Notes under the pieces: generated by a model
Seen by the model: the letters and a program-made list of their open reading frames with translations, nothing else
Told to the model about the DNA's origin: nothing
Databases searched by the model: none
Translations under genes and position numbers: made by a program
Source: Tridacna crocea
Taxonomy: Eukaryota > Mollusca > Bivalvia > Cardiida > Cardiidae
DNA: 64,000 nt
Assembly: GCA_943736015.1 (NCBI GenBank)
Contig: OX031071.1
Coordinates: 15,224,119 to 15,288,118 of the forward strand
Direction: 5' to 3'
Part shown: piece by piece, positions 5,609-64,000 of the stretch
How positions within the stretch are numbered: the stretch's first letter is position 1
Layout of the letters: every line of letters starts with the position of its first letter

Positions 5609-5715
5609 AGTCATTTCGACTACCGGTCATTTCGACACCCGGTAATTTTGACACTTTTAGGTCGTTTCGACCGCCGGTGAATTTTTCTTTTGCAAAATTT
5701 GGTCATTTCGACAAC
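5609..5715 (+). repeat. Subrepeat array, GGTCATTTCGAC unit
   Basis: Several copies of a short unit (GGTCATTTCGACACCCGG and variants such as GGTCGTTTCGACCGCCGG) in tandem. Another block with the same unit lies at 6001-6056 in the same orientation, separated by unrelated sequence. Probably the subterminal array of a larger element. Confidence 0.65.
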
Positions 5716-5759
5716 CGATCAGTGCTTTCCTAGACAGTTTAACTGCTGTGTTTATCAAT

Positions 5760-6000
5760 GTTCTACTTTCTGTATCCATATTTGCTGCACCAGTGCACCT
5801 GTCCATGCCTTTCTAGTCATCCTTTTACCAGTGCTCCGCCAAGCGTAGCTGGCATCCTTTTTATATGCCCAAAAGCTCGTGTTACCTTATACTGTACATC
5901 CGGTCGTCCGTCCGTCCGTCCGTTTGCAATTTCTTATGTGCGCAACTCCTCCTACAGTTTCCATCGGAATTAGATCTATTTGAAATTTGTCACAAAGGTA
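5760..6000 (+). repeat. Composite repeat: CAGTGCACCTATCC block plus pearl-like head
   Basis: 5785-5835 matches a phrase found at 56592, 61043 and (inverted) 63860. 5895-5995 contains CCGTCCGTCCGTCCG followed by CAACTCCTCCTACAGTTTCC, like 4960-5050. It interrupts the GGTCATTTCGAC array. Confidence 0.5.
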
Positions 6001-6056
6001 TCCAGTCGTTTCGGCACTCGGTCATTTCTACACCCAGTCAGTTCGACACTTTTTCA
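6001..6056 (+). repeat. Subrepeat array, GGTCATTTCGAC unit, second part
   Basis: Three degenerate units (CAGTCGTTTCGGCACTCGG, GGTCATTTCTACACCCAG, CAGTTCGACACTTT) continue the array interrupted after 5715. Confidence 0.55.
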
Positions 6057-6317
6057 TGTAAATGAAGGTCGGACTGCACAAACGTGAGGTCTGATATTGG
6101 ATCCACTTTTACCGATAGAGAAATATCTTTTTCCCAAAAATACCTTTGAAATATCAAACGTTAGGATTTTACCTTTGGCTTTGAATTTACATATCAATTA
6201 TTTAGCGGGATACGGGGTAAACTCGATAAGTACAATTAATGGTAAGCCAAGCTTTTCCACTGAAACTATGAAGGCGGTTGATTGTCTAAGAGTACACAAC
6301 AAAGGACAAGAATTCTG

Positions 6318-6537
6318 ACTCGATCACAACATTTGACGACGTGTGCGTGTACTTCTTAAAATCATTTGCAGACAACAAATTCAATGTGACTCAATGTGAT
6401 GGAATTTTTCTTTGATCATATGGTTAAAAACATTGTATGAAAAGGATAAAATGTGTGTGTGTGTTTTTTTTTTTACAATATGTCCAAAAGGCTTGTAACT
6501 GAAGGTCATTACAACTTGGGATTGTGTGGTAAAGGGT
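6318..6537 (-). mobile_element. MITE-1, strongly diverged
   Basis: Retains AATCATTTGCAGACAACAAA on the left and GGATTGTGTGGTAAAGGGT on the right. The palindrome is replaced by a GT/T-rich tract. Confidence 0.6.
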
Positions 6538-7302
6538 ACGGGAGATAATTTGTGCAGTAGATGAAAGATCGGACGGTATGGTTTGTGTAGTCAGATATTG
6601 ATTTCTGTAGTTTATTTCAGTGGAGGGGAAAAATAAAAATTTCTACAAAGTAATTTTTTATCGCCCTGTGTCACATGTTGGATGCTGCCATCTCATACAT
6701 GTATCGCACGAAAGCGCCTGTTTTCTCCTCCCGACCACACCCCTACTTCCTTTAAAAATTCCAAATTATTCATTAAACTCCAAAAACAAACACACCAAAC
6801 AACTATTAACATATTCTTGTCACTGCAAATTTAAGTAGTCTATATTGTTATTTCCAACAGCACATATAGTATACGAGGGTTTTTTTTTTATATTCGTAGA
6901 CTTTTTCTCCTGTATTTTTATTTCTCACTTAATCCAATATCAAATGTGGAAAAAATTAAACGGTCATGTCTTCTTGTTTTAACAATGGTCCATTTTTAAT
7001 GATTTTTATCAAAACGTGCATAAAAATGGTCTCCTATGTTGCGCTACCCGGGGCGCGCCATATTTTGAAATATCGCGAAGTCACAAGGGTTTGCAAAACC
7101 AGCTTACAGTTATCGTAATACAGATCAGAATTGGCGCGAAATCACACAACGTCGTTGTAATGTAATAATGTCATCTCCATTAAAATTTTAGAACGTTACT
7201 TTGAAAACTTTCCAAGTTACATAGAAACTAGTACTGTGCATCGCGTTTCGTTTTAAGGAAAAATGGTGTAGACTGACGACGTCGGAACCAGGGCGGTGAT
7301 AA
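6538..7302. other. No recognisable gene
   Basis: AT-rich interior of the 4577-8013 element. It becomes more GC-rich from about 7035 (GGGCGCGCC), leading into the mariner remnant; that part may be the mariner 5' flank. No terminal repeat was found. Confidence 0.4.
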
Positions 7303-7606
7303 AATTGTGTCGGACTCGGGAAAACGCCAACAGAAACGTTCAATTTAATAAGAAGCTTAAGTACAAGGTCAAAATGCAGTCGTGCCCTAGTGTTCAGCTG
7401 GCACGGCCGGTTTAGAGAAGGACGGGTGTCAGCTGAGGACGATGAAAGGTGCGGACGAAGACCATCTGTAGGGCAGACAAACGGAGTAAAGTGAAACCCA
7501 TGCTTGATAGAGACAGACGCTTAACGGTCAGAGCTATTTCCGAGGATTTAGATATTTCCGCTTCCACAGTGTACAAAATAATAACAGATGATTTGAACAT
7601 GGTATG
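7303..7606 (+). pseudogene. Mariner transposase N-terminal fossil
   Basis: Conceptual translation from 7303 gives GLGKTPTETFNLIRSLS then SWHGRFREGRVSAEDDERCG, a close match to the first helix-turn-helix of mariner transposases (family pattern FxWxxRFxEGRxxxxDDxRxGRPS). It hits TGA at 7492. After a frame change it continues LDRDRRLTVRAISEDLDIS and STVYKIITDDL, the second helix-turn-helix. The catalytic DDD half is missing; sequence after 7612 belongs to the arm of the enclosing element. A dead N-terminal remnant. Confidence 0.85.
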
Positions 7607-7699
7607 TTAAAAAGAATAAAACGTGCCGTGCAGGTGAGTCAAAGTTAGTTGTGACATGGTTTCTGTGATGCCGTTTTGATGTCGCGTTGACGTCGTTTT

Positions 7700-8013
7700 A
7701 TGAATACTGCCGTGTGCTCCAATGAGACTGTCTACGCCGTGCCGATTCACGTAAGAGTCTGCGTTTTGGCCCAACCCATTTACACGTGTACGTAAGATCC
7801 CATTTCTTCAGTGCGTACACGACCGCATCGTGTACGGAATGAAGAAATTGGAAATAGCAGGCACGTAATCGTGCCCCCAAGACGAAATTTCATCAGTCTG
7901 TGCACGACCGTCGGGCACCCAACGAGTTTTCCTTCATTGAGTACACGACAGTCGGACTCGCAGTATGAAATTTCTTCAGTGTGTACACGACTGTCGGGTA
8001 AATATCATCGGCC
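7700..8013 (-). repeat. Right arm of 4577-8013 element
   Basis: Inverted copy of 4577-4890, including the GTACACGACCGCATCGTGTA segment and 43-bp subrepeats. It ends at GTCGGGTAAATA followed by the target duplication. Confidence 0.8.
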
Positions 8014-8022
8014 TTAATGTAA

Positions 8023-8536
8023 ATTGACTGATTTATTAATGATGACTGAAGGATTGAAAAGAGATATAGATAAAAGAAAGAAGGGTGGATAGATAAATAC
8101 TAAGGGCATGAATTCAAATGATGAAAAAAGGGATATCCCTTGTATTAATTTATTGTCCTTATCTTATCTATCCCTAGTCAAAAGTGTTAACTGGATCATG
8201 AAACATCCTTTCAGAGATCCCATAACTCTTTACCAGACATTAAAACTTTTGACTTTGTTAAATCCAAAGAATTAGCACACAATAAATAAAGTATGGCTTA
8301 TATTTGTTGGTTCTGTCTTTTGAAGACTGAAAACACAGTGGGAAAGGAGGAATTTTATTGATTTATGGTGGTCACTGGTCGTGTTGAACAGTTTGAGTCT
8401 GTCAATTATTAATTGAAGCTTTATAAAATTTCTCATACCCCTTTGCAATGAAACTACATATTGTAAATTTTGTAAATATCCATTCTTGACCACTTTCTGC
8501 CTCAACCTTTATTATTATTACTGTTATGGCTCATTA
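8023..8536. other. AT-rich, no gene
   Basis: No supported gene. A weak MITE-1 trace (CTCTTTACCAGACATTAAAA near 8228, AACACAGTGGGAAAGGAGGA near 8329) suggests an eroded copy. Confidence 0.45.
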
Positions 8537-9125: not shown

Positions 9126-9336
9126 AGGGGTCTAAGTGTCTCACTAAAATAGGGGTCTATGTGTCTCAGGGGTCTAATTGTCACCCAAATTTTAAGGGGT
9201 CTAAATGGTCAGGGGTCTAAGTGTCTGACATCCATTTGAGACACTTAGACCCCTGCCCATTTACATTATGATTTAGACCCCTTAAAATTTTAGAATTTGG
9301 GTGATATCTAGACCCCTTTGAGACACTTAGACCCCT
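9126..9336. mobile_element. Fold-back element, AGGGGTCTAAGTGTCTCA subrepeats
   Basis: Two inverted arms are each made of repeated AGGGGTCTAAGTGTCTCA-like units, with an internal pair GTCACCCAAATTTTAAGGGG and its complement. The arms meet near 9228. About 210 bp in all, and no clear target duplication. Confidence 0.75.
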
Positions 9337-9604
9337 TTTTATATTTAGGAACCAATTTTTTCCTGTTCGTTTGCATCGTAATATTTGGTGTTATCACTTT
9401 AGAATGTTTTTCCATATAGAGTAAATTCACCTAACACCGACGGGCCGACAACCCCCCCTCATGTCAACACCCCTAATGTTTTAGCCTTATGCATACTTGC
9501 CTTAGGCCAAAGATATGAAAATATCTTTGTTTGTTATGAAATTAACATGTCTGTAACCTTTGGTGCCAAACTGAGCACCCATTTTAAAATTTGACTGAAT
9601 TGAT

Positions 9605-9700
9605 GGAAACGTCCCTGGTTACTTTTAGTTAAAACATCCCCATTTCCATTCCAAATTGGTTAAAACGTCCCCTTAAAACGTCCCCTGTAGACGACCCCTG
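9605..9700 (-). repeat. GGGACGTTTTAACC subrepeats, left block
   Basis: Degenerate copies of GGTTAAAACGTCCCC. The same unit in inverted orientation occupies 12052-12160. The two blocks may be the arms of one 2.5-kb element, but no target duplication was found. Confidence 0.6.
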
Positions 9701-9860
9701 TATATCTTTTAAACTTATAAAAGTTATTACTTTAATCTTGTTTGATCATTTCAGAAAACTTTCATATTTGATGTGTAACATTATGATGTCATTTATTGTT
9801 ACAGGCCTTAGAATTTTAGCCCATATCCTGCCGAACTTATAGTTTGAAGAGGCACAACAT

Positions 9861-10173: not shown

Positions 10174-10182
10174 GCACAACAT

Positions 10183-12050: not shown

Positions 12051-12051
12051 G

Positions 12052-12160
12052 TGGGACGTTTTGACCAATTTTTTGGAATAGTGAGACGTTTTAACCAAAT
12101 TGGGGGGACGTTTTAACAAAAAGTGGGACGTTTTGACTGTGGGACGTTTTGACTGTAAAC
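12052..12160 (+). repeat. GGGACGTTTTGACC subrepeats, right block
   Basis: Five tandem units such as GTGGGACGTTTTGACCAA, GGGGACGTTTTAACA and GTGGGACGTTTTGACTG. They are the inverted partner of 9605-9700. Confidence 0.7.
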
Positions 12161-12219
12161 CGATGGTTATAGCCTCTAGGGCTATGTATAAACCTTAGTA
12201 CAGATAACTGTCCCCAAAA

Positions 12220-22164: not shown

Positions 22165-22172
22165 GATATTAC

Positions 22173-22769: not shown

Positions 22770-22998
22770 TTAACCCGTTACCACACAATCCCCACTTTTG
22801 ACGCCTTTGACAAAGAAGCCTTTTGAAAACACTGTGGGAAAAGGAGAAAATGCTGGTAACCAGAATTTTCTCCTTGTCCCACAGTGTTTTCTACCCTTCC
22901 CAGAACAAACTTCAATTTTTCAGTCACCTTTATTTTGTCCTCTGCAAATGCTTTCAATTTGGACCAGTCTGAATTTTTCTTGTGTGGTAATGGGTTAA
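22770..22998 (+). mobile_element. MITE-1, complete
   Basis: 229 bp, TTAACCCGTTACCACACAAT to TGTGTGGTAATGGGTTAA. The palindrome arms use CACTGTGGG/CCCACAGTG, a subfamily shared with 27108 and 51216. Confidence 0.92.
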
Positions 22999-26989: not shown

Positions 26990-27107
26990 TGATGGCTTTT
27001 AAAAACATTATTTGAAAACAGAATCATCCTAGCTACCAGCATTTTCTCCTTTTTCCCACAATTTTGACTATCATAGACAAATGATGCACTGAGCTACATT
27101 ATTTTTT
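26990..27107 (+). repeat. MITE-1 remnant
   Basis: TTTTAAAAACATTATTTG and CTACCAGCATTTTCTCC; termini lost. Confidence 0.6.
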
Positions 27108-27336
27108 TTAACCCATTACCACACAATTCCTACTTTTGACGCCCCTGAGAAAGAAGCCTTCTGAAAACCCTGTGGGAAAAGGAGAAAATGCTGGTAACCA
27201 GCATTTTCTCCTTTTCCCACAGTGTTTTCTACCCTTGCCAGAACAAATTGCAATTTTTCAGTCACCTTTATTTTGTCATCTGCAAATGCTTTCAATTTGG
27301 ACCAGTCTAAATTTTTCTTGTGTGGTAATGGGTTAA
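27108..27336 (+). mobile_element. MITE-1, complete
   Basis: 229 bp, TTAACCCATTACCACACAAT to TGTGTGGTAATGGGTTAA. Very close to the copy at 22770, suggesting recent common origin. Confidence 0.93.
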
Positions 27337-27441
27337 CTGAACACCATGTAAAGTTGATGATGGCCAGAGTTTTATCATATGGTAAAGAGTTGATAGGAAG
27401 GAGGAAACAATGTGGAAAAACAAGATAATAATGAGAGTGTA

Positions 27442-28250
27442 GGACAAAACCCCCCTAGGACAAAACCCCCCTAGGATAAAACCCCCATGGACAAAACCCC
27501 CCTAGGACAAAACCCCCATAGGACAAAACCCCCATCATATATAAAAAGCATATAAATTTGAGAAAACACACAGAATTTGCAAACAGTTTTAAAGTATTCA
27601 AAACAAGTCTCTTTGATTTAAGGAAAAAAATCAAACATGAAAGGCAAAAAATGATTTAGATACTATCTTATTTTAATTTGTACCTCAAGTTTGTTGATAA
27701 TTTCTATTGATATATCAACACCTATGCAGACTTGGGCAAGACAGGTGTTGAGAAGGGATTAAGACACCTGATTTGCAAGTTTACACCTGTCATATTCACT
27801 AATATTTAGTAGAAGATTTGAACATATAAAAGCACCAAATAAGAAAAAAAAATCCTTTGATTAATATCTAAATGATTTTTTTTCCATTGTATGAATGCAT
27901 TTATAATTTATTATCAATTCATTATGAATGTATTAAGAAAAAAAGCACATTTTTGGTCATAAAGCAAAATTTTAAGGAAAAAACACATTTTTTATCATAA
28001 AGCACAATTTAAAGAAAAAAATCATATCAAATCAATTTAACTTATACAAAAACATTATTTTTTACAACCCCCACAAGTATTTAAAGCAGTAAATTTTATT
28101 CAACTTTAAAATGATTGTACAAAAAGAATCATTTTAAAACCATGGGGGTTTTGTCCACTTTTCAGTTAAGGGTATGGGGGTTTTGTCCAGGGGGGTTTTG
28201 TCCAGGGGGGTTTTGTCCTAGGGGGGTTTTGTCCTAGGGGGTTTTTGTCC
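27442..28250. mobile_element. Fold-back element, GGACAAAACCCCCCTA subrepeats
   Basis: Left arm of six tandem units GGACAAAACCCCCCTA (27442-27537). The right arm has the complementary GGGGGGTTTTGTCCTA units (28142-28250). The AT-rich middle of about 600 bp has no gene; it contains a direct repeat GAAAAAAGCACATTTTTGGT/GAAAAAACACATTTTTTATC (27938/27975). No target duplication is clear. Confidence 0.82.
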
Positions 28251-28744: not shown

Positions 28745-28973
28745 TTAACCCATTACCACACAATCCCTACTTTTGATGCCCCTGAGAAAGACGCCTTTAG
28801 AAAACATTGTGGGAAAAGGAGAAAATGCTGGTAACCAGCATTTTCTCCTTTTTCCACAATGTTTTCTACCCTTCACAAAACAAATTCCAAATTTTCAGTC
28901 ACCTTTATTTTGTCGTCTGCAAATGCTCTCAATTTGGACCAGTCTAAAATATTGTCGTTTGGGAATGGGTTAA
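28745..28973 (+). mobile_element. MITE-1, complete
   Basis: 229 bp, TTAACCCATTACCACACAAT to GTTTGGGAATGGGTTAA. Core GAAAATGCTGGTAACCAGCA. Confidence 0.93.
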
Positions 28974-29637
28974 ACGATTTTACATTAGGAATCATGGTTT
29001 AGTGTCTATTGGTGCAGCTCATTATAGTCCGGTCTGTTAACTCGATTTTTTAGCAAAATGTTTACACTCCGGACGAAAGCAACAAATTTTGCATACAGTT
29101 AATAAACATCATTCCGAACCATTTGCGCCTGGTGTGCCCGATTTTAGTGGCCTAGTTCATTAATTACTGCCTATTATATATTCGGATAGATGTAGTGTCC
29201 GAATACTCTTCCTTTGTATTTTATCAGAACACATATATTAGTATCTCACAATGATTTGATCACTGAGGGTCGATCAAAACGCTTTCAAATTTAAGAGAAC
29301 TTCATTTTTTTATCAAAAATTTGTTTTATTATTTACTTTGTAGGTGGATTTTTGTTTATTTTCAGTAATAGAGATATGAATAAATCCGAAATGGTACCCA
29401 GAATGGGCATTTTTAGTAATTTTTTCACTTTCATATGAAGTTCCGAAACTTTTGAAAGGTCCAAAAAACCTAAAACGGCTGTACCGGTAGTTTTATTAAT
29501 CATCTTTTTCGAAGATACACACAAAAAAAGAAATGTCGTTTTATCAATCTTTAGGTAGACTTCAGAGAGTAAAGCAGTACCATAAGCGCTATTTTCTGTC
29601 GGGCGTATTGATAGAACTTTTAGTATGCAGACTGCAT

Positions 29638-30768: not shown

Positions 30769-30837
30769 TAGTTACGGCGAATGTTTTCACCCGACGACGT
30801 CCATATCGTACTTAGTATATGGGCGACGGACAAAAGT

Positions 30838-31264
30838 CCACTGGACAAAAGCCCACTGGGCAAAAGCTCACCTCTAATTTTGACAGGGAGGACAAATGCC
30901 CACTGCTTATAAAAAGAAGTGTATAAAAAATAATTTTTTAATCATTTTTGTAGAAAAAAACACAGAGATTTAATGATCAGAATGATCAAATTGCTTTTTT
31001 TTTCTTCTCAATGTTTAATTCTCTGCAACATTTCTCACTCTTACAACAACCATGTGAAAGAAGAAGAAAATGCTGCTTATCAGCATGTTCTGCTTTTCAC
31101 ATAACGTTTTCTGCTTTTTGTAGAGACAAGTCACATAATATATACGAAACTTATTAATTCCATACATGATTAGAACTAAAAGTTCTATTGGGCTATTGTC
31201 CCAGTGGGTTTTTGTCCTGGTGGGCTTTTGTCCAGTGGGCTTTTGTTCCAATGGATTTTTGTCC
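30838..31264. mobile_element. Fold-back element, GGACAAAAGCCCACTG subrepeats
   Basis: Left arm units GGACAAAAGTCCACT, GGACAAAAGCCCACT and GGGCAAAAGCTCACC; right arm units CAGTGGGTTTTTGTCC, GGTGGGCTTTTGTCC and so on. 427 bp. The flanks ATATGGGCGA and ATATGGAGAC are similar and could be an imperfect 10-bp duplication set slightly outside the arms. A worn MITE-1 core lies inside (31050-31130). Confidence 0.78.
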
Positions 31265-31451
31265 TATACCCAGCATATGGAGACGATAGAGTAAAGGTAG
31301 TTCAAATGGTTGTAATTGTCCTTGAAAAAGTAAAACATATTGTTGAAGCTGGAGAAAGATTGCTTCTTTTTCTCAAGATTTTCTCTCACACCTTGAAAAT
31401 TCATTTTTCGCAGATGTTTTTGAACTACTAGTATATACATGTATTGATTAC

Positions 31452-39804: not shown

Positions 39805-41079
39805 AGCTCACCAGAGCACAACGTGCTCAAGGGGAGCTTTTAGGATCACCCGGTGTCCGTCGTGCGTCAGTGCGTCGTCAACAATTCTTTAAACACCAAC
39901 TCCTCCTAAACCGCTGGGCCAATTTGGACCAAACTTAGCTGGAATGTTCCTTGGGAAGTCCTCTTTAAAAATTGTTCACAGAATTTGATTCAATTAAAAA
40001 CTCTGGTTGCCATGGCAACCAAATGGAATTTTTAAGCAAATTCTTTAAAAATCTTCTCCTCTGAAACCGCAGGGCAGATTTTGAAATGATTTGACAGAGA
40101 TGTTCCTTGGGTAACCCTTTTCAAAAATTGTTCGTGAAATTTTGATCCGTCAAAAAATGTGGCTCTGGTGAATGGGGGCTACTTGCACTATACAGAAATG
40201 AAGTAATTCTTAAAAATTCTTCTTCTCTGAAACTGCTGATCAGATTTTGAAATAATTTCACAGAGATGTTCTTTGGGTGACCCTTTTCAAAAATTGTTCG
40301 CGAAATTTTGATTCGTCAAGATACCCGGCTCTGGTGAATGGGGGCTTCTTGCACTATACGGAAATGAAGGAATTCTTAAAAATTCTTCTTCTCTGAAACC
40401 GCTGGTCAGATTTTGAAATAATTTCACAGAGATGTTCTTTGGGTGACCCTTTTCAAAATTTGTTCGCTAAATTTTGATCCGTCAAGATACACGGCTCTGG
40501 TGAATGGGGGCTACTTGCACTATATGGAAATGAAGACATTCTTAAAAATTCTTCTACTCTGAAACTGTTGGTCAGATTTCAAAATAATTTCACAGAGATG
40601 TTCCTTGGATGACCCTTTTCAAAAAGTGTTGCAAAATTTTGATCAATCAAGAAACATGGCTCTGGTGAATGGGGGCTTCTTGCACTGTATGGCCATGAAG
40701 AAATTCTTTAAAATTCTTCTTCTCTGAAACGGCTGATCAGATTTTGAAATAATCTCACAGAAACGTTCCTTTGGTAACCCTTTTCAAAAATTGTTCGCAA
40801 AATGCGAACTTGTCTAGAAACATGGATCTGGTGAATGGGGGCCACTTGCACTAGTTATTTGTTCTTTAAAATTCTTTTTCTCTAAACAAAAATTGCTCGA
40901 GAAATTTTGATCCATCAAGAAACATGGCTGTGATGGCTGTGGGCTATTTACACTATATTAACATGAAGAAATTCTTGAAAATTCTTCTTGTCTAAAATGG
41001 CTGATTAGATTTTGAAAAAAATGGCTATGGTTCTCTCAGAAATCCAGGGGAGCAATCCAGGGCCATCTTGGCCCTCTTG
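39805..41079 (+). mobile_element. Pearl/DINE-like element, same family as 34283
   Basis: Head AGCTCACCAGAGCACAACGT with CGTGCGTCAGTGCGTCGTC. The core has about six 170-bp units (GAAATGAAGAAATTCTT, TTCAAAAATTGTTCGCGAAA). The tail CCAGGGCCATCTTGGCCC forms a hairpin and ends CTCTTG before TTT. The last units are eroded (40860-41020). Confidence 0.85.
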
Positions 41080-45555: not shown

Positions 45556-46816
45556 ACAATAGGACCATTATGGTCCTATATCGCTGACCTGAGTACTAAG
45601 CAGTAAAGGTCTACAATGAAAATTCTTCTTTTCCGAAAAGACCATCGTATCGTATTTGGTAGAGGTCCACTAGGAGATGCTACATAATGAAATATAAAAG
45701 CTCTACAATTTCCAGTTTCAGAGAAAAATATTTTAAAAGTTTTCCTTCTTTGTTCCTATGTTTCGAACTTGTGACCCCCAAGGCTGGACCAGTTTGGACC
45801 CCAGGGACATCATGTGAACAAACTTGGTAGAGGTCAACTAGCAGATGCTTCATACCAAATATCAAAGCTCTACTCCTTCTTGTTTCAGAGAAGAAGATTT
45901 TTTAAAGTTTTCCTTCTCTGTTCCTATGTTTCAAACTTGTGACCCCCGGGGCAGGGCCAGTTTTGACCCCAGGGGCATCATACGAACAATCTTGGTAGAG
46001 GTCCACTAGGAGATGCTACATACCAAATATCAAAGCTCTGCCCCTTCTAGTTTCATCGAAGAAGAATTTTAATTCTAGTTTCATCGAAGAAGAAATTTTA
46101 AAGTTTTCCTTATTTGTTCCTATGTTTCAAACTTGCGACCCCTGGGGCGGGGCCAGTTTTGACCCCAGGTGCATCATATGAACAATCTTGGTAGAGGTCA
46201 ACTAGGAGATACTACATACCAAATATCAAAGCTCTGCACCTTCTAGTTTCAGAGAAGAAGATTTTTACAGTTTTCTTTCTTCGCTCCTCTGTTTCAAACT
46301 TGTGACCCTCGGGGCCGGGCCAGTTTTGACCCCCAGGGGCATCATACAAACAATCTTGGTAGAGGTCAACTAGGAGATGCTACATACCAAATATCAAAGC
46401 TCTGCCCCTTCTAGTTTTGAAGAAGAATATTTCTAAAGTTTTCCTTCTTTGTACCTATGTTTCAAACTTGTGACCCCGGGGGCATCATATGAACAATCTT
46501 GGTAGAGGTCCACTAGGAGATGCTGCATACCAAATATCAAAGCTCTACGCCCACTAGTTTCAGAGAAGATTTTCAAAGATTTTGCTATTTTTTTCCTTTT
46601 GGTTACCATGGCAACCAAAGTTATGGCTGGAATTCAATCTCTTGAACAACTTTAGTAGAGCTTCATCCAAAAAACGTCCCTGCCAAGTTTCATCAAGATT
46701 GGCCCAGTGGTTTGGGAGGAGAAGATGTTTAAAGAAATTGTGGACAACAGACGACGGACGACGAACATTGGGCGATCACAAAAGCTCAGCATGAGCACGA
46801 AGTGCTCAGGCAAGCT
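45556..46816 (-). mobile_element. Pearl/DINE-like element, ~167-bp tandem core
   Basis: Read on plus it opens with the tail hairpin (AGGACCATTATGGTCCTATA), then five to six units (CAAACTTGTGACCCC, CCAGTTTTGACCCCAGGGGC, TACCAAATATCAAAGCTCTG). It then has GGTTACCATGGCAACC and closes with the head complement GAAGTGCTCAGGCAAGCT. The head shares its plan with the 34283 family but the core is unrelated. Short open frames are by-products of the repeats. Confidence 0.85.
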
Positions 46817-46842: not shown

Positions 46843-48277
46843 AACAAGAGGACCATGATGGTCCTATATCGCTCACCTGAGTACCAAGCTGTAAAATCAA
46901 ACTTGTGACCCCTGGGCAGGGCCAGTTTTGACCCCAGGGGCATCCTAAGAAAAAACTTGGTAGAGGTCCACTAGGAGATGCTACATACCATATATCAAAA
47001 CTCTGCACCACTTAGTTTCAGAGAAGAAGAATTTTAAAGTTTTCTTCCTTTGTTTCTATGATTCAAACTTGTGACCCCCGGGATGGGACCAGTTTTGACC
47101 CCAGGGGCATCATATGAACAATCTTGGCAGAGGTCCACTAGGAGATGCTACATACCAAATATCAAAGCTGTATGCCTTCTACTCAGAGAAGAAGAATTTT
47201 GAAGTTTTCCACCTTTGTTCCTATGTTTCAAACTTGTGACCCCCGGGGCGGGGCCAGTTTTGACCCCAGGGGCATCATATGAACAATCTTAGTAGACGTT
47301 CACTAGGAGATGCTACATACCAAATATCAAAGCTCTGCGCCTTCTAGTTTCAGAGAAGAAGAATTTTAAAGTTTTCCTTCTTTGTTACTATCATACAAAC
47401 TTGTCACCCCCAATGGTGGAGCCAGTTTTGACCCCAGGGGCATCATATGAACAATCTTAGTAAAGGTCTACTAGGAGATGCTACATACCAAATATCGAAG
47501 CTCTGCGCCTTCTAGTTTCAGAGAATAAAAATTTTAAAGTTTTCCTTCTTTGTTCCTATCATACAAACTTGTGACCTCCGGGGCGGGGCTAGTTTTGACC
47601 CGAGGGACATCATATAAAGAATCTTGGTAGAAATCCACTAGGAGATGCTACATACCAAATATCAAAGCTGTACGCCTTCTACTTTCAGAGAAGAAGAATT
47701 TTGAAGTTTTCCTCCTTTGTTCCTATGTTTCAAACTTATGACCCCCGGGCCGGGCTAGTTTTGACCCCAGGGGCATCATATGTACAATCTTGGTAGAGGT
47801 CCACTAGGAGATGCTACATACCAAATATCAAAGCTCTTCGCCTTCTAGTTTCAGAGAAGAAGAATTTTAAAGTTTTCCTTCTTTGTTCCTATGTTTCAAA
47901 CTTGTGACCCCTGGGACGGGGCCAGTTTTGACCCCAGGGGCATCATATGAACAATCTTGGTAGAGGTCTACTAGGAGATGCTACATACCAAATATCAAAG
48001 CTCTACGCATTCTAGTTTCGGAGAAGAAGATTTTCAAAGATTTTTCAAATTTTTTCCTTTTGGTTGCCATGGCAACCAGAATTATGGCTGGAATTCAATC
48101 TCTTGAACAACTTTGGTAGAGCTTCACCCAAGGAACATCCCTGCCAAGTTTCATCCAGATTGACCCTGTGGTTTAGGAGGAGAAGATGTTTAAAGAAATT
48201 GTGGACGATGGACGACGCACGACGGACATTGGGCGATAACAAAAGCTCACCATGAGCACTTCATGCTCAGGTGAGCT
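46843..48277 (-). mobile_element. Pearl/DINE-like element, second copy in tandem
   Basis: Opens ACAAGAGGACCATGATGGTC, about seven core units, GGTTGCCATGGCAACC at 48061, and closes CATGCTCAGGTGAGCT. It lies 26 bp from the previous copy in the same orientation. The T-run targets (AAAAA on plus) flank both. Confidence 0.87.
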
Positions 48278-51099: not shown

Positions 51100-51545
51100 T
51101 TACGAAAAAATATTGACCAAGGTCGGGCTTAGGCCGACCTGGGCTAAAACTTTTCAATTTTAGTCAATTTTCTGTGTGTACAATGATCAGTCTACTTCAT
51201 GATTGAGTTTGTAGTTTAACCCTTTATCACACGAGAAAATTTTAGGCTGGTCTAAATTGAAAGCATTTGCAGACGACAAAATAATGGTGACTGAAAAATT
51301 GAAATTTGTTCTGGGAAGGGTAGAAAACACTGTGGGAAAAAGAGAAAATGCTGGTTACCAGCATTTTCTCCTTTTCCCACAGTATTTTCAAACGGCTTCT
51401 TTCTCCGGGGCGTCAAAAGTAGGGATTGTGTGGTAATGGGTTAAAAACAGTGGCAATCATGGATTCATTACTATGTGATGGCTTGATCAGTACAATGAAT
51501 CATGGAGATACATAAGACCCCCTTTTGTCAGATCCTGGCTCATAC
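51100..51545 (+). repeat. Dispersed repeat carrying a MITE-1 (copy 1)
   Basis: Left flank CCGACCTGGGCTAAAAC ... GATCAGTCTACTTCATG and right flank GGATTCATTACTATGTGATG ... GAATCATGGAGATACATAAG match 55258-55690 on either side of a MITE-1. In this copy the MITE-1 is in reverse orientation. Confidence 0.7.
51216..51444 (-). mobile_element. MITE-1, complete, reverse
   Basis: 229 bp, TTAACCCTTTATCACACGAG to GTGTGGTAATGGGTTAA. Core GAAAATGCTGGTTACCAGCA; CACTGTGGG subfamily. Confidence 0.92.
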
Positions 51546-53372: not shown

Positions 53373-53740
53373 ACAGCAATACTCGTCTCGTTTTATAAAT
53401 ATGCTTCTTTTTTTTTTGAGTGATACAAATTTGTTTCACGAGTATCAGCAATTAAAATTGACGCAATGTTTGATGACCTTTATTTTAAAGACACGGCCTC
53501 AAACTTCAAACATGTTTAAAGTTATTGTCGGTTCTAAACCCCATTCACAAGCAAAAATTATACATTATGCCAACTCGCTATCATTTGCTTGATCAAGCAT
53601 GAAACTGAAACAAAAATATTGACCAACAGCGAACACAATTATAGGCCTATGACGTAAGAACCAGCAGTCCACGTGCGGGTAAACCTAATCTGTGCCTTGC
53701 GGGTAAACTCGTTATGGGATATTCTCCACGCTTGTATAGT

Positions 53741-54973
53741 GGTAAACGGTCAAAAGCCCCTCCGGTCATTATCCCCTACCCCCAAAACAGGTAAGGCGGT
53801 CAAAAGCCCCTTCGCAAATTTGCAAGGGCGGTCATTATCCCCTTCATCAATTTTTAAAGGCGGACAAAAGCCCCTTCGCGATTTCGCAAGGGTGGTCATT
53901 ATCCCCTTCATCAAATTTTGATGGCGGTCAAAGGCCCCTTTATCAGTAGCAGACAAAAGTCCCTATGAATGGTAACCATACCAACATTATCCCCTCCGTA
54001 GACATGAAGTCTGATAATCGCTTTGAAATAGAACACTTGTAAAATATACACTAATGTGTGAAATGTGTGAAATTATCGGATGTGGATCTATAATTGATGA
54101 TTGTTGATTGATTGTAATGTTCAACCCCGTTTTAAACATTGTTTGATTTATATCGTGGCTGCCAATGTATCTATCACCGCTTTTCCATGGTGCTTTTTTT
54201 CAATTAGTCGGCTATTTTTTCCCAGGCCACTGTCTACTTACTTACTCACATAACCATTTAAATGCTAATGGTCAACGGGTAGCTCAGTGGTGAGCGTGTC
54301 GGACTCATGACCTAGTGGTTATGAGTTCGATACTGGTTGAGGCAAACTTTCTTTCCGGCGTAATTTCGCCTCTCATCTCTGCTGAAGCATTTGAGAAAAG
54401 TAGTTGGTGGCTTTGGAAAGAAAGTTGTGTAAGTACCGGTGTGAGAAAGCCAGGAAACACATGTGCATCAGCAACTGCCATGATATGACCTTAGCTGTTA
54501 AAGTGGCGTAAACCCCCAATACAACCAACCAACATCTATTGAAATGAATCAGATAAACTGAGGACGGATTAAGATAATTATCTGTTATGGTACAAAGTGA
54601 TCACTCGTTTACATGTTGAATGTATAAGACCGACAGGAAACAATTTTAATGAGTAAATCAACATCAAGCAAAAAAAGGGGGGGGGCAGGAGATAGGGATG
54701 CACGGCACAGGTACGACACTGAAATTATTTTATTTCTTCGTTAGAAATCACAAAGAGAAACGCTAGCCCATGTAAAGGGGCTTTTGTACGCCCAAAAGAT
54801 TGGATCAAGGGGATAATGACCACCCTTACTAAATCGCAAAGGGGCTTTTGACCGCCTTTAAAATTTGATGAAGGGGATAATGACCGCCCTTGTAAAATTA
54901 TGAAGGGGCTTTTGACCGCCATACCTGTTTTGGGGGAAGGGGATTATGACCGGAGGGGCTTTTGACCGCCATT
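53741..54973. mobile_element. Fold-back element with GGTCAAAAGCCCC / GGTCATTATCCCC subrepeats
   Basis: Arms of about 220 bp in inverted orientation alternate GGTCAAAAGCCCCTTCGC and GGTCATTATCCCCTTCATCA units. The same order of units is kept in both arms, including the outermost CCCAAAACAGGT-type spacer. CTTGTATAGT flanks both sides (53731-53740, 54974-54983), so a 9-10-bp duplication. The centre holds a SINE (54272-54535). No coding sequence. The length of the duplication favours a Mutator-like origin. Confidence 0.88.
54272..54535 (+). mobile_element. tRNA-derived SINE nested inside fold-back element
   Basis: A box GGTAGCTCAGTGGTGAGC, B box GAGTTCGATACTG, body AAAAGTAGTTGGTGGCTTTG, tail CAATACAACCAACCAAC. 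Same family as 52144. Confidence 0.85.
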
Positions 54974-55257
54974 CTTGTATAGTCACATGGATGTAATGTG
55001 TGAAAACCCTGGATCATAGCTGTGTTTTGTGGATTTTATTGGCAGTTGGTGTTATACACGAATATGAATTGCTTTGAAAAACTCGGACCGATTTATAGGT
55101 ATATTATCGGAATTCTAATCGGTCCGGCTACTCAAAAGTCGGTCTGGACCGGCATTTGGTCGGTTTTCCGGAGCCCTGCAACCAACCAATTGATTATTAT
55201 ATATTATTAAATCATAGAGCTCTATTAAACGAGGGCTTAATGCAACTGATAAAAACT

Positions 55258-56055: not shown

Positions 56056-56061
56056 ACTAAC

Positions 56062-57907: not shown

Positions 57908-58022
57908 TGAATATCACAAATATCATTGAATAAGAACGAATTTATCTAAATGGGTTCAACTGATCAAAAACAATAAAACAAGAAAAGAACGGAAACAAAG
58001 AACTTGAAACAGTTGAACACAT

Positions 58023-59807
58023 TTAAAAGGTGCAGTGACAGCATAAAAACGTGTCTCCGCGTCTTACTACATTTTGGGTATGACAGAATGACAAATGTAC
58101 CCAATGGTCACATTTGGAACACTGTGCCCATGAGACAATTTTGAGATATGGCCTGTTATTAAGGTTGGGGGGCGAGAACTTGTTACAAACACAGCAAAGG
58201 TCACTGTCTGAAGGATCGTCTGTGTCCATGTCAGATTCACTGTCCATTTCAAATTCTGGTTGGGCATTGGTATTTTTGTTATTATTGACTCCACTAGTTG
58301 AAGGCTCTTCATTACTATTAATTTTTCTTTTCTGTCCCTGTTTTGGTTTTTTGTCATTTCTCTTGAATTGTTGCAATCTTTCGTTTTCATATTCTGTCAG
58401 TTCTTCCATATAAGGTCCTTCGGTTATGGCCGTGCCCCCTGCTCGTGGCTTAGTTGATCTATTGGCAGCTTTGCTGCAACATTGACAATGCTTAGATGAT
58501 TTTTCTGTATCGTCCTTGTCTCCTTTCTCGTACATTTTTGACAAATAACTTTCAACTGCATCTTTCCCACCTTTCATGGCTTGTATCTTTTGTATCGGGT
58601 TTCTGTCTCTGTATGATTCTGTGGGGTATAACTTTTCTGGCGATACAGCATATCTATCAAATGGGTATATACCACTCTTCCTGAAAGCTGACATGATGTT
58701 AATTGGTGACATAGCCTTTAGATACGCTTTACAGGATATGTCAACCATGTCATACTTTGTGACAACCCTACCCATATTCTCCCTCATGAAGGCAGCACAT
58801 TCCCCATAATAAAATCTTTTGAAGGGCCCAAATATCCCTACATCTAACGGCTGCAGAATATGGGATGTGTGAGCAGGTAGAACAAATAGAATAATATTTT
58901 TGGAAGCTGCCCACTCAATCAGCGATTTTGAAATATGGGATGAATGACCATCAAATATAAGTAGAACGTGTTGGTTCTCATCCCGTGCCAAGCTTGGGAG
59001 GAAATGACCCTCCAAGTATTGTTTGAATACTTGGTAATTTGACCATCCAGAATCAGACATGACCCCTTTACAACCAGGGCTTGCTCCTTTCATTAAGTCA
59101 GGATTAAACCGTTTTCCCTTAAAAACAAAGAAGGGAGGCAAGAAGTGTCCAGCAGCATTTGCACAAGCAATGATTGTTGTTGTTGTTGATCTTGGGGAAG
59201 TCACGGACTGTGTTTTGCCACTGACCGGAGCTATCACATTAGGGGGTCTATGTTCTGGGTGTATGCCCGTTTCGTCCAAATTATATATAAACTGGGGCTT
59301 GTCATGAAGATTATACTTGGTAATTATAGCTTGTAGGTTGGAGAAATATGTTTCAACATTTTCCGGTGAAGCAGATTTTGCTCGAGTTGCCTCCAGAGCC
59401 TGTGGCTTTATTGCTCTAATACGATCTCCCCATCTCTTCAAGAATGCATATAGCCAGCAATTACTCATTGGATTACAGCTCTGTCTTTTCCCCAAAGCAT
59501 GAGCCAGTTCACCAGCAAGGTGTTGCACTTTGCGACATGTCGCACCATAGCCAAGTTGGGCTAACGATTCCAGATGGTCAACCAAGCCTTCTTCCTCTTC
59601 CATGGTAAAAATCGTATCACCACCTTTTTTGAAGTTAATGGGGTCGATGTTCCCTTTTACTCGATCTCTTAGGGTCTGCTCCGGTACTCCATGTAGTTTT
59701 GCAGAGTGTCTTACAGAAAGTCCACCAGTCATGACATCTTCATATGCTTTCAAAAGGTTCTCCGGGTGGTAAGATCGGTATTTATTTATGTACTGTTTAG
59801 GCCTCAC
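58023..59807 (-). CDS. Pogo/Tigger-type DDE transposase-derived protein with PHD finger, main exon
   Basis: 594 codons. A psq-type helix-turn-helix (residues ~14-55, LLKAYEDVMTGGLSVRHSAK, GVPEQTLRDRV) precedes a DDE_1 domain (~170-385). Likely catalytic residues are D178 (YNLDETGIH), D286 (LIFDGHSSH) and D322 (ILQPLDVGIFGPFK), 35 residues between the last two. The linker is acidic/basic (SDMDTDDPSDSD), and a C-terminal PHD-type zinc finger has C538/C541, C563/C566, H571, C575 and C589/C592. Expected role: DNA binding, possibly with chromatin recognition. The first codon is GTG, preceded in frame by TAA and by AACAG, so it is a spliced exon. All catalytic Asp are intact and there is no frameshift, amid decayed repeats. 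No flanking inverted repeats were found. It is either a young transposon or a domesticated gene. Confidence 0.93.
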   Translation of the reverse strand: MRPKQYINKYRSYHPENLLKAYEDVMTGGLSVRHSAKLHGVPEQTLRDRVKGNIDPINFKKGGDTIFTMEEEEGLVDHLESLAQLGYGATCRKVQHLAGELAHALGKRQSCNPMSNCWLYAFLKRWGDRIRAIKPQALEATRAKSASPENVETYFSNLQAIITKYNLHDKPQFIYNLDETGIHPEHRPPNVIAPVSGKTQSVTSPRSTTTTIIACANAAGHFLPPFFVFKGKRFNPDLMKGASPGCKGVMSDSGWSNYQVFKQYLEGHFLPSLARDENQHVLLIFDGHSSHISKSLIEWAASKNIILFVLPAHTSHILQPLDVGIFGPFKRFYYGECAAFMRENMGRVVTKYDMVDISCKAYLKAMSPINIMSAFRKSGIYPFDRYAVSPEKLYPTESYRDRNPIQKIQAMKGGKDAVESYLSKMYEKGDKDDTEKSSKHCQCCSKAANRSTKPRAGGTAITEGPYMEELTEYENERLQQFKRNDKKPKQGQKRKINSNEEPSTSGVNNNKNTNAQPEFEMDSESDMDTDDPSDSDLCCVCNKFSPPNLNNRPYLKIVSWAQCSKCDHWVHLSFCHTQNVVRRGDTFLCCHCTF

Positions 59808-60512
59808 CTGTTAATTTAAAACGATAATCAAACAGCTGATAATGTTAATGAAAAATGCAGAATATACAGGCAAATCCAACTGCAAGTCGGGTCCTGTGTG
59901 GCTCAGTGGTAAAGTGTAGGACTGGCGTGACCCGGATGCCCCGGGTTCGAGCCTTACCGACTCCACTGGGTTTTTCACAGACTCTCTTCGAGTAGGACAC
60001 TTCAGAGCCTAACCTTGTACTGGTGAAACCTAGGAAAACGTGAATGTTAGCTGTCACTGTGATATGACTGAAATAAAGTTGAAAACACCGTAAAACACTT
60101 TGCAAACAAAGAAAAAAACAGCTGCTAGACACAACTATTGTTGTTTTGTTTAATAGAATGTGCAAAAATGCCATAAAATCGTGAAAGTACTGTCCCAGTT
60201 AATTAAAAGTACTGGTATAATTAATTGATTTTCAGAAAATTTAATTGCTTCATTTAGCGTGTCATTTACCGTGTTAGAAAAATCAGCGATTAAGATTCCC
60301 CTATTGCGCCCCAGGTTTTCCCCATTCTTGCATGCGCCTTGATGACTCTGATAATGTCACGTGACTTCATACGAAATACCTGGCGTCGGCTACATGAATG
60401 AAATTTGGGATTTTTATGCTTGAAATAAACAAATACAGCGCCACCTACAGGCTTAAAAGATGTAAGAAATTAAATTGTTGATTATTTTTCTATTAATAGA
60501 AGGAATAAATAC
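59808..60512. other. Intron of the transposase-derived gene
   Basis: 705 bp between donor (60512) and acceptor (59808) on the minus strand. Holds a SINE (59889-60103) and otherwise AT-rich DNA. CAGCGCCACCTACAGG at 60438 looks like a possible transposon terminus, but no partner was found. Confidence 0.6.
59889..60103 (+). mobile_element. tRNA-derived SINE in intron
   Basis: A box GTGGCTCAGTGGTAAAGTG and B box GGGTTCGAGCCTT. The body ends GTGATATGACTGAAATAAAG. A third SINE family in this window. Antisense to the host gene. Confidence 0.75.
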
Positions 60513-60602: not shown

Positions 60603-60874
60603 TCGAAAAAATACGTCATTAAAAAATACACGAAATCGAAGGGTACCACGAACCGAGCAGAATCGAGTATATCACTAAAACAGCCCAGCACGAAATCACA
60701 TTACTTTCTGAATATAATCCCAGGTTTATGTCATCATCTCAGAAAGTTTTCAGACGTATCTGTTTCACAGTCAAAGAAAAATCGATAGTGCTTCATTAAC
60801 TCACAACAATATGTGCAATTACTAAAATCTGATTTGACAGCTGAGAGTAGCTTACAGTCGGGTTCGTCTAAAAT
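60603..60874. promoter_or_regulatory. Presumed 5' flank of the transposase-derived gene
   Basis: About 270 bp between the first exon and the next transposon. No TATA box or other motif can be called. Promoter location is inferred from position only. Confidence 0.25.
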
Positions 60875-61085
60875 ACGAAAAGGACTCCTTTTCGCGAAAA
60901 GGACTTTAGATTTTACGAAAAGGAGTCATAGGAGTTAGTCCTTTTCGTGAAAAGGATTTACAAGTTCAAGAAAAAGAACCCTTCTCAAATTAGGATTTTT
61001 CTTTTTGCACATCGTTTTCAACATCATTACTTTATAGATAAATGCACCTATCTATGCTTTCCCGGAGTTCTGAAAAGGGGTGTCT

Positions 61086-61155
61086 TAACCCTTTCCCAAA
61101 CGACAAAATTTAAGACTCGTACAGATGGAATGCAACTGCAAACAAGACACTTATT
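61086..61155 (-). repeat. MITE-1 left fragment
   Basis: TTAACCCTTTCCCAAACGAC to GCAACTGCAAACAAGACAC. Confidence 0.75.
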
Positions 61156-61205
61156 TAACTGAAACAAGAGGACCATGATGGTCCTATATCGCTCACCTGA
61201 GTACC

Positions 61206-61738
61206 TAGTCTCAATAATGAGACGCCCCGGTGATCTTTTCATATTTGGACATTTACTGTACACCGTACCGTTTCGAGTCCATCGTAAATTTTCCGGTAGC
61301 AAATATAGATCGCTATACTGACTTTCGGTTTAGTCGGTTTTATCTGTATTGTAGCGAAATGCAATTAAATTTTTGTACTAAACATGACCAAAAACAAATT
61401 GTTAAACCATTCAGTACATAAAAAGCCTGTAGAAATCGTTTACAACATGTTTATCTTGGAAAAATCATGGACGAGATTTATCGTGCGTGGCAGCCATTTT
61501 GTATGTTTTCGGGAATGTAAACATTCGAGTAGCTGATGAAATGCACGTTTTTTTCTCATGATGAGCGTTTAGATTGAAAATATTTGTATTTTAAACGAAG
61601 GAATATTGAATACGCAAGCCACATGTATGTTTAAATCCTTGTGCGGAACTTTCAACTGATTTTGTCCGGGTTGTCTCTGTACCCAGAGACGACCAGTCGA
61701 AAAGTAACATAGCCTTTGGGGACAGTTATCTGTACTAC
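61206..61738 (+). mobile_element. Hairpin-ended element (copy 1), 8-bp TSD
   Basis: 533 bp between copies of TGAGTACC (61198-61205, 61739-61746) in the head of a pearl-like core; the uninterrupted site is visible at 46876 (CCTGAGTACCAAGCTG). The left end carries GTCTCAATAATGAGAC, the right end ACAGTTATCTGT, each a self-contained hairpin; the two ends are not inverted repeats of each other apart from TAGT. No poly-A tail and no coding frame. Second copy at 12195-13255. Confidence 0.85.
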
Positions 61739-62479
61739 TGAGTACCAAGCTGTAAAATCAAACTTGTGACCCCTGGTCTGGGCCAGTTTTGACCCCAGGG
61801 GCATCCTAAGAAAAAACTTGGTAGAGGTCCACTAGGAGATGCTACTTACAAAATATCAAAGCTCTACGCCTTCTAGTTTCAGAGAAGTAGAATTTTAAAG
61901 TTTTCCTTCTTTGTTCCAATGTTTCGAACTTGTGACCCTTGGGGCATGGCAAGTTTTGATCCAGGGGCATAGTATGAAGAAAGTTTGTAGAAGTCTACTA
62001 AGAGATGCTACATACCAGATATCAAAGCTCTACGCCTTCTAGTTTCAGAGAAGAAGAATTTTAAAGTTTTCCTTCTTTGTTCCTATGTTTCAAACTTGTG
62101 ACCCCGTCATGGGACCAGTTTTGACCCCAAGGACATCATATGAACAATCTTGGTAGAGGTCCACTAGGAGATGTTACATACCAAATATCAAAGCTCTGCA
62201 CCACCTAGTTTCAGCGAAGAAGAATTTTAAAGTTTTCCTTCTTTGTTCCTAAGCTTCAAACTTGTGACCCCAGGGTGGGGCCAGTTTTGACCCAAGGGGT
62301 ATCATATGAACAATCTTGGTAGAGGTCCACTAGGAGATGCTACATACCAAATATCAAAGCTCTGCGCCTCCTAGTTTCAGAGAATCTTTTTTTTTAAGTT
62401 TTCCTTTTTTGTTCCTATGTTTCAAACTTGTGACCCCGAGGCGGGGCAAGTTTTGACCCCAGGGGCATCATATGAACAA

Positions 62480-63143
62480 TCTTGGTAGAGGTCAACTAGG
62501 AGATACTGCATACCAAATATCAAAGCTCTGCACTGTCTAGTTTCAGAGAAGAAGATTTTTAAAGTTTTCCTTCTTTGTTCCTAAGTTTCAAACTTGTGAC
62601 CCCGGGGTTGGGCCACTTTTGATCCAAGGGGTATCATATGAACAATCTTAGTAGAGGTCCACTAGGAGATGCTACATACCAAATATCAAAGCTCTGCGCC
62701 TTCTAGTTTCAGAGAATTTTTTTTTTAACTTTTCCTTCTTCGTTCCTATGTTTCAAACTTGTGACCCCCGGGGAGGGGCCAGTTTTGACCCCAGGGGCAT
62801 CATATGAACAATCTTGGTAGAGGTCAACTAGGAGATACTGCATACCAAATATCAAAGCTCTGCACTGTCTAGTTTCAGAGAAGAAGATTTTTAAAGTTTT
62901 CCTTCTTTGTTCCTAAGTTTCAAACTTGTGACCCCGGGGTTGGGCCACTTTTGATCCAAGGGGTATCATATGAACAATCTTAGTAGAGGTCCACTAGGAG
63001 ATGCTACATACCAAATATCAAAGCTCTGCGCCTTCTAGTTTCAGAGAATTTTTTTTTTAACTTTTCCTTCTTCGTTCCTATGTTTCAAACTTGTGACCCC
63101 CGGGGAGGGGCCAGTTTTGACCCCAGGGGCATCATATGAACAA
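62480..63143 (-). repeat. Exact 332-bp tandem duplication within core array
   Basis: 62480-62811 and 62812-63143 appear identical by eye, including a T9 run. Each contains two ordinary core units. Other units in the array differ at many positions, so this is a recent duplication or an assembly artefact. Confidence 0.75.
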
Positions 63144-63592
63144 TCTTGGTAGAGGTCCACTAGGAGATGCTACAAAGCAAATATCAAAGCTCTGTGCCTT
63201 CTAGTTTCAGAGAAGAAGAATTTTGAAATTTTCCTTCTTTGTTCCTATAATACAAACTTGTGACCCCCGGGGCGGGGCCAGTTTTGACCCCAGGGAGATC
63301 ATATGAACAATCTTGGTAGAGGTCTACTAGGAAATGCTTCATACCAAATATCAAAGCTCTTCGCCTTCTAGTTTCAGAGAAGAAGATTTTCAAAGATTTT
63401 GCTATTTTTTTTTTCCTTTTGGTTGCCATGGCAACCAGAATTATGGCTGGAATTCAAATTCTTCAACAACTGTGGTAGAGCTTCACCCAAGGAATATCTC
63501 TGCCAAGTTTCGTCAAGATTGGCCAAAGGGTTTAGGAGGAGATGTTTAAAGAAATTGTGGACGACGGACGACGAACATTGGGCGATCACAAA

Positions 63593-63645
63593 TGAAGTTT
63601 GTATCGGGAAGGGTAGGAAACATTGTGGGAAAAGGAGAAAAATAG
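63593..63645 (-). repeat. MITE-1 central fragment
   Basis: GAAGTTTGTATCGGGAAGGG and ACATTGTGGGAAAAGGAGAA; joins directly to the truncated head of the preceding element. Confidence 0.7.
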
Positions 63646-63736
63646 GTCACTGGTTCGAACTCTCATTTTGCAATTTTTCTCCAAGGATTTATGATCAGTA
63701 ATTGCAACAAAAATGATTCCTCTCCCACCGCTGATA

Positions 63737-63776
63737 TTTTATTTATTTATTTATTTATTTGTTTATTTATTTATTC
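63737..63776 (+). repeat. (TTTA)n microsatellite
   Basis: About nine TTTA/TTTG units. Confidence 0.9.
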
Positions 63777-64000
63777 TTTTTTTTATACTGGTTGTCTGGA
63801 AAAGCAGCCACTGCATTGGTAGGACTATTGTGCGAAAAACTAGTGAACAGAAACTCCGGGAAAGCATACCTAAGTGCACTGGTCTCTGCAATAGAACTGA
63901 AATGATGTTGAAAGCAACATACAAGGAAAAGAAATCCTAATTTGAACAGTGGAATTAAAAGTCCTTTTCGCGAAAAGGACCGACTCCGTTGACTCCTTAT

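Follow-up and report, generated by a model that had tools for sequence, protein, structure and literature searches.

Blocks of short tandem units in a 64-kb stretch of the Tridacna crocea genome are very probably ends of several families of Mutator-like elements

The DNA analysed here, referred to as the window, is a stretch of 64,000 nucleotides of the Tridacna crocea genome (GenBank assembly GCA_943736015.1, contig OX031071.1; C16:15224119-15288118 in the numbering used below). The assembly comprises 1.05 Gb in 31 contigs, designated C1, C2 and so on, and loci fetched from it carry L-numbers (L010, L057 etc.). The window contains several blocks of short tandem units, which are very probably the ends, complete or relic, of several mostly non-autonomous families of Mutator-like elements (MULEs) of the FLYWCH/Phantom 'composite TIR' (terminal inverted repeat) type.

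The families are designated A' (GGTCATTTCGACACCC), B (AGGGGTCTAAGTGTCTCA), C (GGTCAAAACGTCCC, the inward reading of the word first annotated as GGGACGTTTTAACC), D (GGACAAAACCCCC), E (GGACAAAAGCCCA), F (GGTCAAAAGCCCC and GGTCATTATCCCC) and G (CCTTTTCGCGAAAAGG, which is its own reverse complement). The letter A denotes an additional element that was absent from the list of the initial annotation. Units are 13-16 bp long in the word families and 41 bp long in A. The elements and arms found in the window are the following.

4568..8022, unstranded: element A, MULE-like, its inverted arms built of 41-bp tandem units; body at 4577-8013; perfect 9-bp duplication TTAATGTAA at 4568-4576 and 8014-8022
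5604..5712, plus strand: relic A' end inside A, GAATGA followed by GTCATTTCGAC units
5997..6054, plus strand: relic of the other A' terminus inside A, GGTATCC-AGTCGTTTCG, on the same strand as the relic at 5604..5712
9126..9233, plus strand: B arm ending in GACATCC (9227-9233), the reverse complement of the terminus GGATGTC
9234..9340, minus strand: another B arm, degenerate, joined head to head to the arm at 9126..9233
9605..9702, plus strand: left arm of C, TTAAAACGTCCCC units, outer terminus lost
12052..12161, minus strand: right arm of C, terminus GGTTTAC intact (12155-12161)
27435..27535, plus strand: left arm of D, terminus GAGTGTA (27435-27441) followed by GGACAAAACCCCC units
28141..28250, minus strand: right arm of D, GGGGTAC terminus missing, no duplication
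30821..31271, unstranded: element E, termini GGGCGAC and GGGTATA, GGACAAAAGCCCA units, flanks AGTATATGG and AGCATATGG
53732..54983, unstranded: element F, body 53741-54974, 9-bp duplication TTGTATAGT on each side, termini GGTAAAC and GAATGGC, words GGTCAAAAGCCCC and GGTCATTATCCCC
60850..64000, running past the window, unstranded: element G, TIR GGGTTCGTCTAAAAT and CGAAAAGGACTCC units, with a 166-bp satellite array inside

Every word was found more often than by chance. Matches with up to 2 mismatches on both strands, compared with the mean of 20 dinucleotide-preserving shuffles, numbered 4 vs 0 for A', 5 vs 0 for B, 7 vs 0.9 for C, 11 vs 0 for D, 8 vs 0 for E, 22 vs 1.15 and 7 vs 1.2 for the two F words and 3 vs 0 for G, where the F and E counts take in some cross-hits to the D and E blocks. 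The positions first given for the blocks agree with these matches to within about 20 bases, except that the exact left C word lies at 9658, within the block starting near 9605. The inverted tandem arms ascribed to most blocks are present in C (9605/12052), D (27442/28250), E (30828/31264), F (53741/54974) and G, the right arm of which extends beyond the window end; the block at 5609, in contrast, consists of same-strand clusters, and that at 9126 is a head-to-head junction of two B arms and a relic. Elsewhere, B words pair in the opposite sense, and most listed pairs are separated by 1-3.4 kb. The 5609 block is likewise a relic, formed by two A' termini on one strand within element A. Element A has a second copy in L028 (96.5% identity across 3139 aligned columns), where a separate 9-bp duplication, ATTTTATTA, was read by eye. 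The arrangement there is the same, so that the A' relic predates the spread of A. In the window, F, A and G are whole elements and E is whole but old, while C has kept only its right terminus and D only its left one. The flank of G, GCTTACAGTC (60850-60859), is repeated at 64137-64146, starting 137 bases past the window end. The satellite array within G (about 10 copies, 61758-63400) lies entirely inside the element, and arrays with a similar consensus are located at 45656-46481 and 46897-48044.

Genome-wide, both strands were searched, and the figures are counts of words, not of elements. Matches numbered 221 for the A' word and 692 for the B word (1 mismatch allowed), 496 for the F double word (exact), and 1884, 1441 and 486 for the D, E and C double words (3 mismatches); the backward control gave 0 each time. 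The number of units per arm varies between copies and between arms (F 6-9, A' 2-7, D 5-8), as expected from the gain and loss of units that the initial annotation had assumed. The rapid pace proposed for this turnover was not borne out, however: unit numbers differ rather little among copies of one family, and of eight D copies, for example, seven have 6 left units.

Target duplications were read at the outer ends of the arms. For A', 12 of 20 fetched loci were hand-picked where the outer ends of both arms were plain; these are bounded by GGTATCC and GAATGAC, with six perfect duplications of 9 bp, four perfect ones of 8 bp and two matching at 8 of 9 bases. For F, with the termini GGTAAAC and GAATGGC, the window and 18 of the 20 loci fetched gave 21 arm pairs (L040 and L056 are without one end). 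Joined to the nearest right end, 13 of these have a perfect duplication of 9 bp, one a perfect duplication of 8 bp and seven none; two of the seven (L047, L051) show a perfect 9-bp duplication once joined to a farther right end, which brings the fit to 16 of 21. When right flanks were swapped among 34 elements (21 F, 12 A' and the element L057 described below), none of 1122 pairs was perfect. D has the termini GGGGTAC and GAGTGTA and, in eight copies, three duplications of 9 bp and four of 8 bp (L067 is without one end); B, with GGGAGTG and GGATGTC, has 8 bp in 4/4 copies. C ends in GGTATCC and GGTTTAC, the duplication being CTTTTTCAC (9/9) in one element and CTTCAGGC/CTTCAGGT (7/8) in the other. 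Element A has a 9-bp duplication in both copies (window and L028), and G one of 9-10 bp in the single copy seen. The flanks of E match at 8 of 9 bases, as one old insertion. They are common to 4/4 sampled copies (L070-L073, all near-exact matches on C1; window site 30780-31320), and E is therefore regarded as a single old insertion that was moved about as passenger of a larger repeat. Duplications of the MULE type (8-11 bp, usually 9) were thus found in the families tested, the window copies of C and D excepted, and the target duplications show that insertion takes place with an 8-9-bp stagger.

An asymmetric 7-bp motif stands outside the inverted repeat in A', F, D, C, B and L057; E is ambiguous, and A and G differ. 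All 14 termini compared (A', B, C, D, E, F and L057) start with G, and at each of these ends the unit begins with RGWC, a pattern derived from these same data and not predicted beforehand. The mean best 7-mer match between termini of different families is 4.76/7, as compared with 3.23 in shuffled sequences (0/5000 as high). In-phase identity of the seven unit words is 8.33/16 vs 4.30 shuffled (0/5000), the unit phase for B and E being the analyst's choice and all families coming from one genome. The terminus GGTATCC is common to C and A' although their unit words differ. Intermediate words, for which a search had been suggested, do occur: the F arms of the window also hold GGACAAAAGCCCC units (53862 region), which stand between the F and E words.

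Membership in hAT, whose copies all have 8-bp duplications, was considered and rejected: 9 bp dominates in F and A', and only B has 8 bp throughout. For B itself hAT was considered on account of these 8-bp duplications, and is not preferred because the B end GGATGTC-AGACACTTAGACCCC lines up with A'. Duplications of 8 bp are usual for hAT and P elements, and MULEs make them too.

Across the genome, the Pfam MULE profile gave 61 hits. The element L057, 3.13 kb long, has an open frame of 515 aa that contains a FLYWCH domain (residues 37-98, 4.6e-12) and a MULE domain (220-311, 1.4e-9); its arms consist of GGACGTTTTGGCCAC, its termini are GAATGTA and GGAGGAC, and its 9-bp duplication is GCTTACACT. 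The residues D223, D283, H308, W406 and E424 occur at spacings like those printed for Muta1 (D214, D283, H307, W401, E419; PMC5225508; what is said here of cited papers applies to the parts of their text drawn on). Exact matches of the L057 double word were listed from C1 to C6:6.55M, the lineage of each MULE hit being told by score and frame length. Within this range the double word adjoins 9/9 hits of the L057 lineage (eight on both sides, C3:28649406 on one) and 0/10 other MULE hits. The lineage comprises 21 rows near-equal in score, many with the 515-aa frame (e.g. C9:7514315 and about 20 further places); the near-equal scores and many intact frames suggest a recent spread. Where the L057 word forms runs in a single orientation (C4:62143948-62144195, C1:69988534-69988749), the arrangement resembles a young minisatellite derived from the arm of a transposon.

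Queried with the L059 protein, the genome yielded 74 hits. These include 21 rows belonging to the L057 lineage, at 30-31% identity, and four loci that represent the L059 lineage itself, matching at 92-100% in one or two pieces. The terminal word of L059, CCATTTCGCCC, matches at 99 places when up to 3 mismatches are allowed, and five of these have 0-1 mismatches. Four of the five (C1, C5, C9, C17) lie about 1.5-1.6 kb from all 4/4 loci of the L059 lineage; if 3-mismatch places are included, the loci on C9 and C17 have the word on either side, no farther than 4 kb away. The fifth (C13:48932371) has an opposite copy 1 kb away and no such gene among the hits listed. L060 is a ZSWIM-like gene.

The longest A' copy, L012, measures 6.2 kb (485-6715) and has the 8-bp duplication AAATTTTA. 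A search with the L057, L058 and L059 proteins found three ordered pieces like the L058 protein in it:

L012 3935-3861, minus strand: piece 1, L058 residues 339-363, 60% over 25 aa
L012 3644-3390, minus strand: piece 2, L058 residues 363-448, 43% over 86 aa, 5e-19
L012 3078-2923, minus strand: piece 3, L058 residues 445-497, 34% over 53 aa

The ends of the pieces meet at neighbouring L058 residues in an exon-like manner, and piece 2 ends in NNDVEG at the position of the catalytic glutamate. The third piece is kept in L010, L015 and L016, and the end of the second in L013. From one arm to the other, shorter A' copies align to L012 at about 94-98% in stretches interrupted by gaps; this alignment and the pieces kept suggest that they arose by internal deletion from a parent resembling L012. 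MULE transposase sequence lies with the word of L057 (with FLYWCH), with that of L059 and, in pieces lacking FLYWCH, with that of A'. These three word-linked lineages are 27-30% identical to one another.

A genome search with piece 2 gave 34 hits, including L012, the L013 place (87% over 30 aa) and, at 50%, C11:13193742, a MULE hit 4 kb from an exact C word. The chance expectation for such a pair is about 0.06 (96 exact C places, 61 MULE hits, within 5 kb), and the C11 hit is the sole transposase candidate for C, to be taken as a lead. When MULE places were compared by eye with the word matches listed (about the first 100 places per word), no pairing was seen for the words of the window beyond A' and this one. 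A tblastn search of all fetched loci and the window with the L057, L058 and L059 proteins gave no match at E<0.05 outside L012 and L057-L060. Inspection by eye of the long A' and F copies for open frames (minimum 100-120 aa) showed only frames like those of long interspersed nuclear elements (LINEs), and Pfam detects a reverse transcriptase in L013. At L037:1021-5205 a LINE (Pfam endonuclease and reverse transcriptase) lies inside an F element that retains its 8-bp duplication, and a frame at L023:2506-3066 encodes a transposase DNA-binding domain of the Tc5 type (PF03221, 4e-9).

Of the remaining features of the window, a Pfam scan of 8 of the 16 open reading frames of at least 110 aa found one reverse transcriptase fragment. 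The open reading frame at 58023-59810 (595 aa) encodes a pogo-type transposase (Pfam HTH_psq, DDE_1), the Cys-rich tail of which resembles a PHD finger by eye. A second 166-bp satellite occupies 34498-35385 and 40038-40853. A very common short repeat is located at 22770-22998, 27105-27336, 28745-28975, 51216-51447 and other places, and frames such as GRVENIVGKGENAGYQHFLLFPQ recur in many fetched loci (by eye).

The assignment of the group to MULEs follows from the duplications, the asymmetric 7-bp terminus, the inward tandem units, the two transposase lineages bounded by sister words and the pieces in A'. In the main, the initial annotation had recognized a real group and guessed its unity rightly. 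Its own counter-case, different transposase superfamilies with different duplication lengths behind the different words, was not seen; B, with 8 bp only (4/4), has a size that MULEs also make. Several observations weigh against the assignment. Duplications are missing from five of the 21 F pairs, from one of the eight D copies and from the C and D copies in the window, and the 8-bp size of all B duplications is also usual for hAT and P elements. The RGWC start is not at that position in the A and G words, nor in that of L059 within its unproven boundary; in the same in-phase table, agreement with the other words is limited to 1-5 of 16 positions for L059 and to 3-7 for G, and the choice of phase for B and E, noted above, belongs here as well. 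The L059 end is unsupported by a duplication, and Pfam gives MULE and no FLYWCH for its open frame; L058, with FLYWCH and MULE, has no tandem arms in the 5-kb piece fetched. The L012 pieces span only L058 residues 339-497, so that the first half and the FLYWCH part were not seen, and no intact transposase was found for A'. For B, D, E, F and G no transposase was found, no search for the P family having been made.

Unrelated DNA transposons (P/Galileo, hAT, Zisupton, others) might each have gained foldback-type arms, the likeness of their words being superficial. Such a case is known in Galileo, a P transposase in foldback arms (PMC4079207, PMC3169594), and the uniform 8-bp duplications of B, together with the five families for which no transposase was found, would be in keeping with it. 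Convergence of this kind is nevertheless improbable in view of the 9-bp duplications in A', C, D, F, A and L057, the alike termini, such as GGTATCC in both A' and C, and the fact that all three word-linked transposase lineages found are MULEs. Still harder to uphold, and already disfavoured, is an origin as minisatellites, in which short tandem words expanded locally and were then copied about by other repeats. The spread of E as passenger of a bigger repeat and the one-way runs of the L057 word (e.g. C4:62143948-62144195) are of this sort, whereas the duplications specific to each element, whose distance from the word is constant in A', F, D, B, C and L057, and the failure of swapped flanks to match (0/1122; A', F and L057 only) are not.

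The form in which the group was first proposed, a single transposase reading every word, with units turning over fast, is unlikely to hold. The alike termini and unit phase and the variable unit numbers (A' 2-7, F 6-9, D 5-8) speak for it. Against it, three lineages only 27-30% identical pair with three words, the exact L057 double word is absent beside 10/10 other MULE hits in the listed range, and unit counts are fairly stable within a family. One superfamily of MULEs is thus supported, with 8-9-bp duplications, alike termini and transposases bounded by such words, A' included, and wherever a link could be followed, a given word is associated with a separate branch of one transposase family.

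Sea urchin TU elements have short tandem units in inverted outer domains and an 8-bp duplication, and are likened to the present ones by description only. The plan is known from the Tm1 Mutator/Foldback elements of Meloidogyne (PMC3169594), which likewise have two asymmetric 7-bp motifs (A1/A2) outside the inverted repeat, tandem units of about 14 bp in variable number, 9-bp duplications, a FLYWCH and MULE (Phantom) transposase and many copies resembling miniature inverted-repeat transposable elements. Tm1 differs in having a single unit word and a purine-rich inner motif, whereas the present genome has several families with different words, their units measuring 13-16 bp (41 bp in A). Muta1 and other Aedes MULEs share the 8- and 9-bp duplications, the FLYWCH domain, the DDE spacing and derivatives with unrelated insides (PMC5225508); Muta1 belongs to another host, its termini are described as a 10-bp imperfect palindrome, and it was likened by description. 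In Aedes, 14 families have 8-9-bp duplications, and subterminal tandem repeats of 9-15 bp occur in ten of twelve long-TIR families, so that several such families in one genome were already known (PMC5225508). Tetris/DAIBAM of Drosophila virilis has foldback TIRs with internal tandem repeats, 8-10-bp duplications and a link to satellite DNA as here, but its repeats measure about 220 bp and no transposase is known for it (PMC4079207, where sea urchin foldbacks are also named). Two MULE surveys and a plant study of MULEs with tandem TIRs contain, in the parts drawn on, nothing that contradicts these findings. A bivalve survey lists 39 MULE consensus elements, and the terms 'foldback', 'subterminal' and 'Phantom' are absent from its main text. 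Among the open-licence papers listed, none was found to match several words to several FLYWCH-MULE lineages within a single genome. As the element design is already known (the plan of Tm1 and Muta1), the novelty is modest, and the interest lies in the paired words and transposases.

From the presence of the FLYWCH domain it is plausible that the transposase reads the repeat. Given this domain, the pairing of words with lineages and the role of repeated sites in Galileo (PMC4079207), we infer that the FLYWCH zinc finger may bind the tandem unit, with its core RGWC in seven families. The many unit sites at each end would increase binding, the MULE core would cut at the terminus and insert with the 8-9-bp stagger, and each transposase lineage would drift jointly with its word. 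FLYWCH belongs to the WRKY-GCM1 group, a zinc finger group reportedly treated by Babu et al. in 2006, and the W-box core of plant WRKY proteins is TGACY. The RGWC core reads RGTC in the A', F and C words and RGTCA in F, C and part of A'; the latter may be read as the W-box core in reverse, a lead only, taken from the letters of the words.

Tentatively, the genome may hold a graded series of transposase-word pairs, in which each FLYWCH-MULE lineage reads its own unit on the shared RGWC core and drifts jointly with it; the common terminus of A' and C and the C11 gene, 50% identical to the A' piece, are cited for this. New families would then arise by joint drift of finger and unit, and a readable recognition code for FLYWCH fingers would follow. 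Several repeat families, with 221-1884 word matches each, fall under one transposase type, and the word-transposase pairs within one genome provide a natural set for testing the co-evolution of transposases and the DNA ends that they may recognize.

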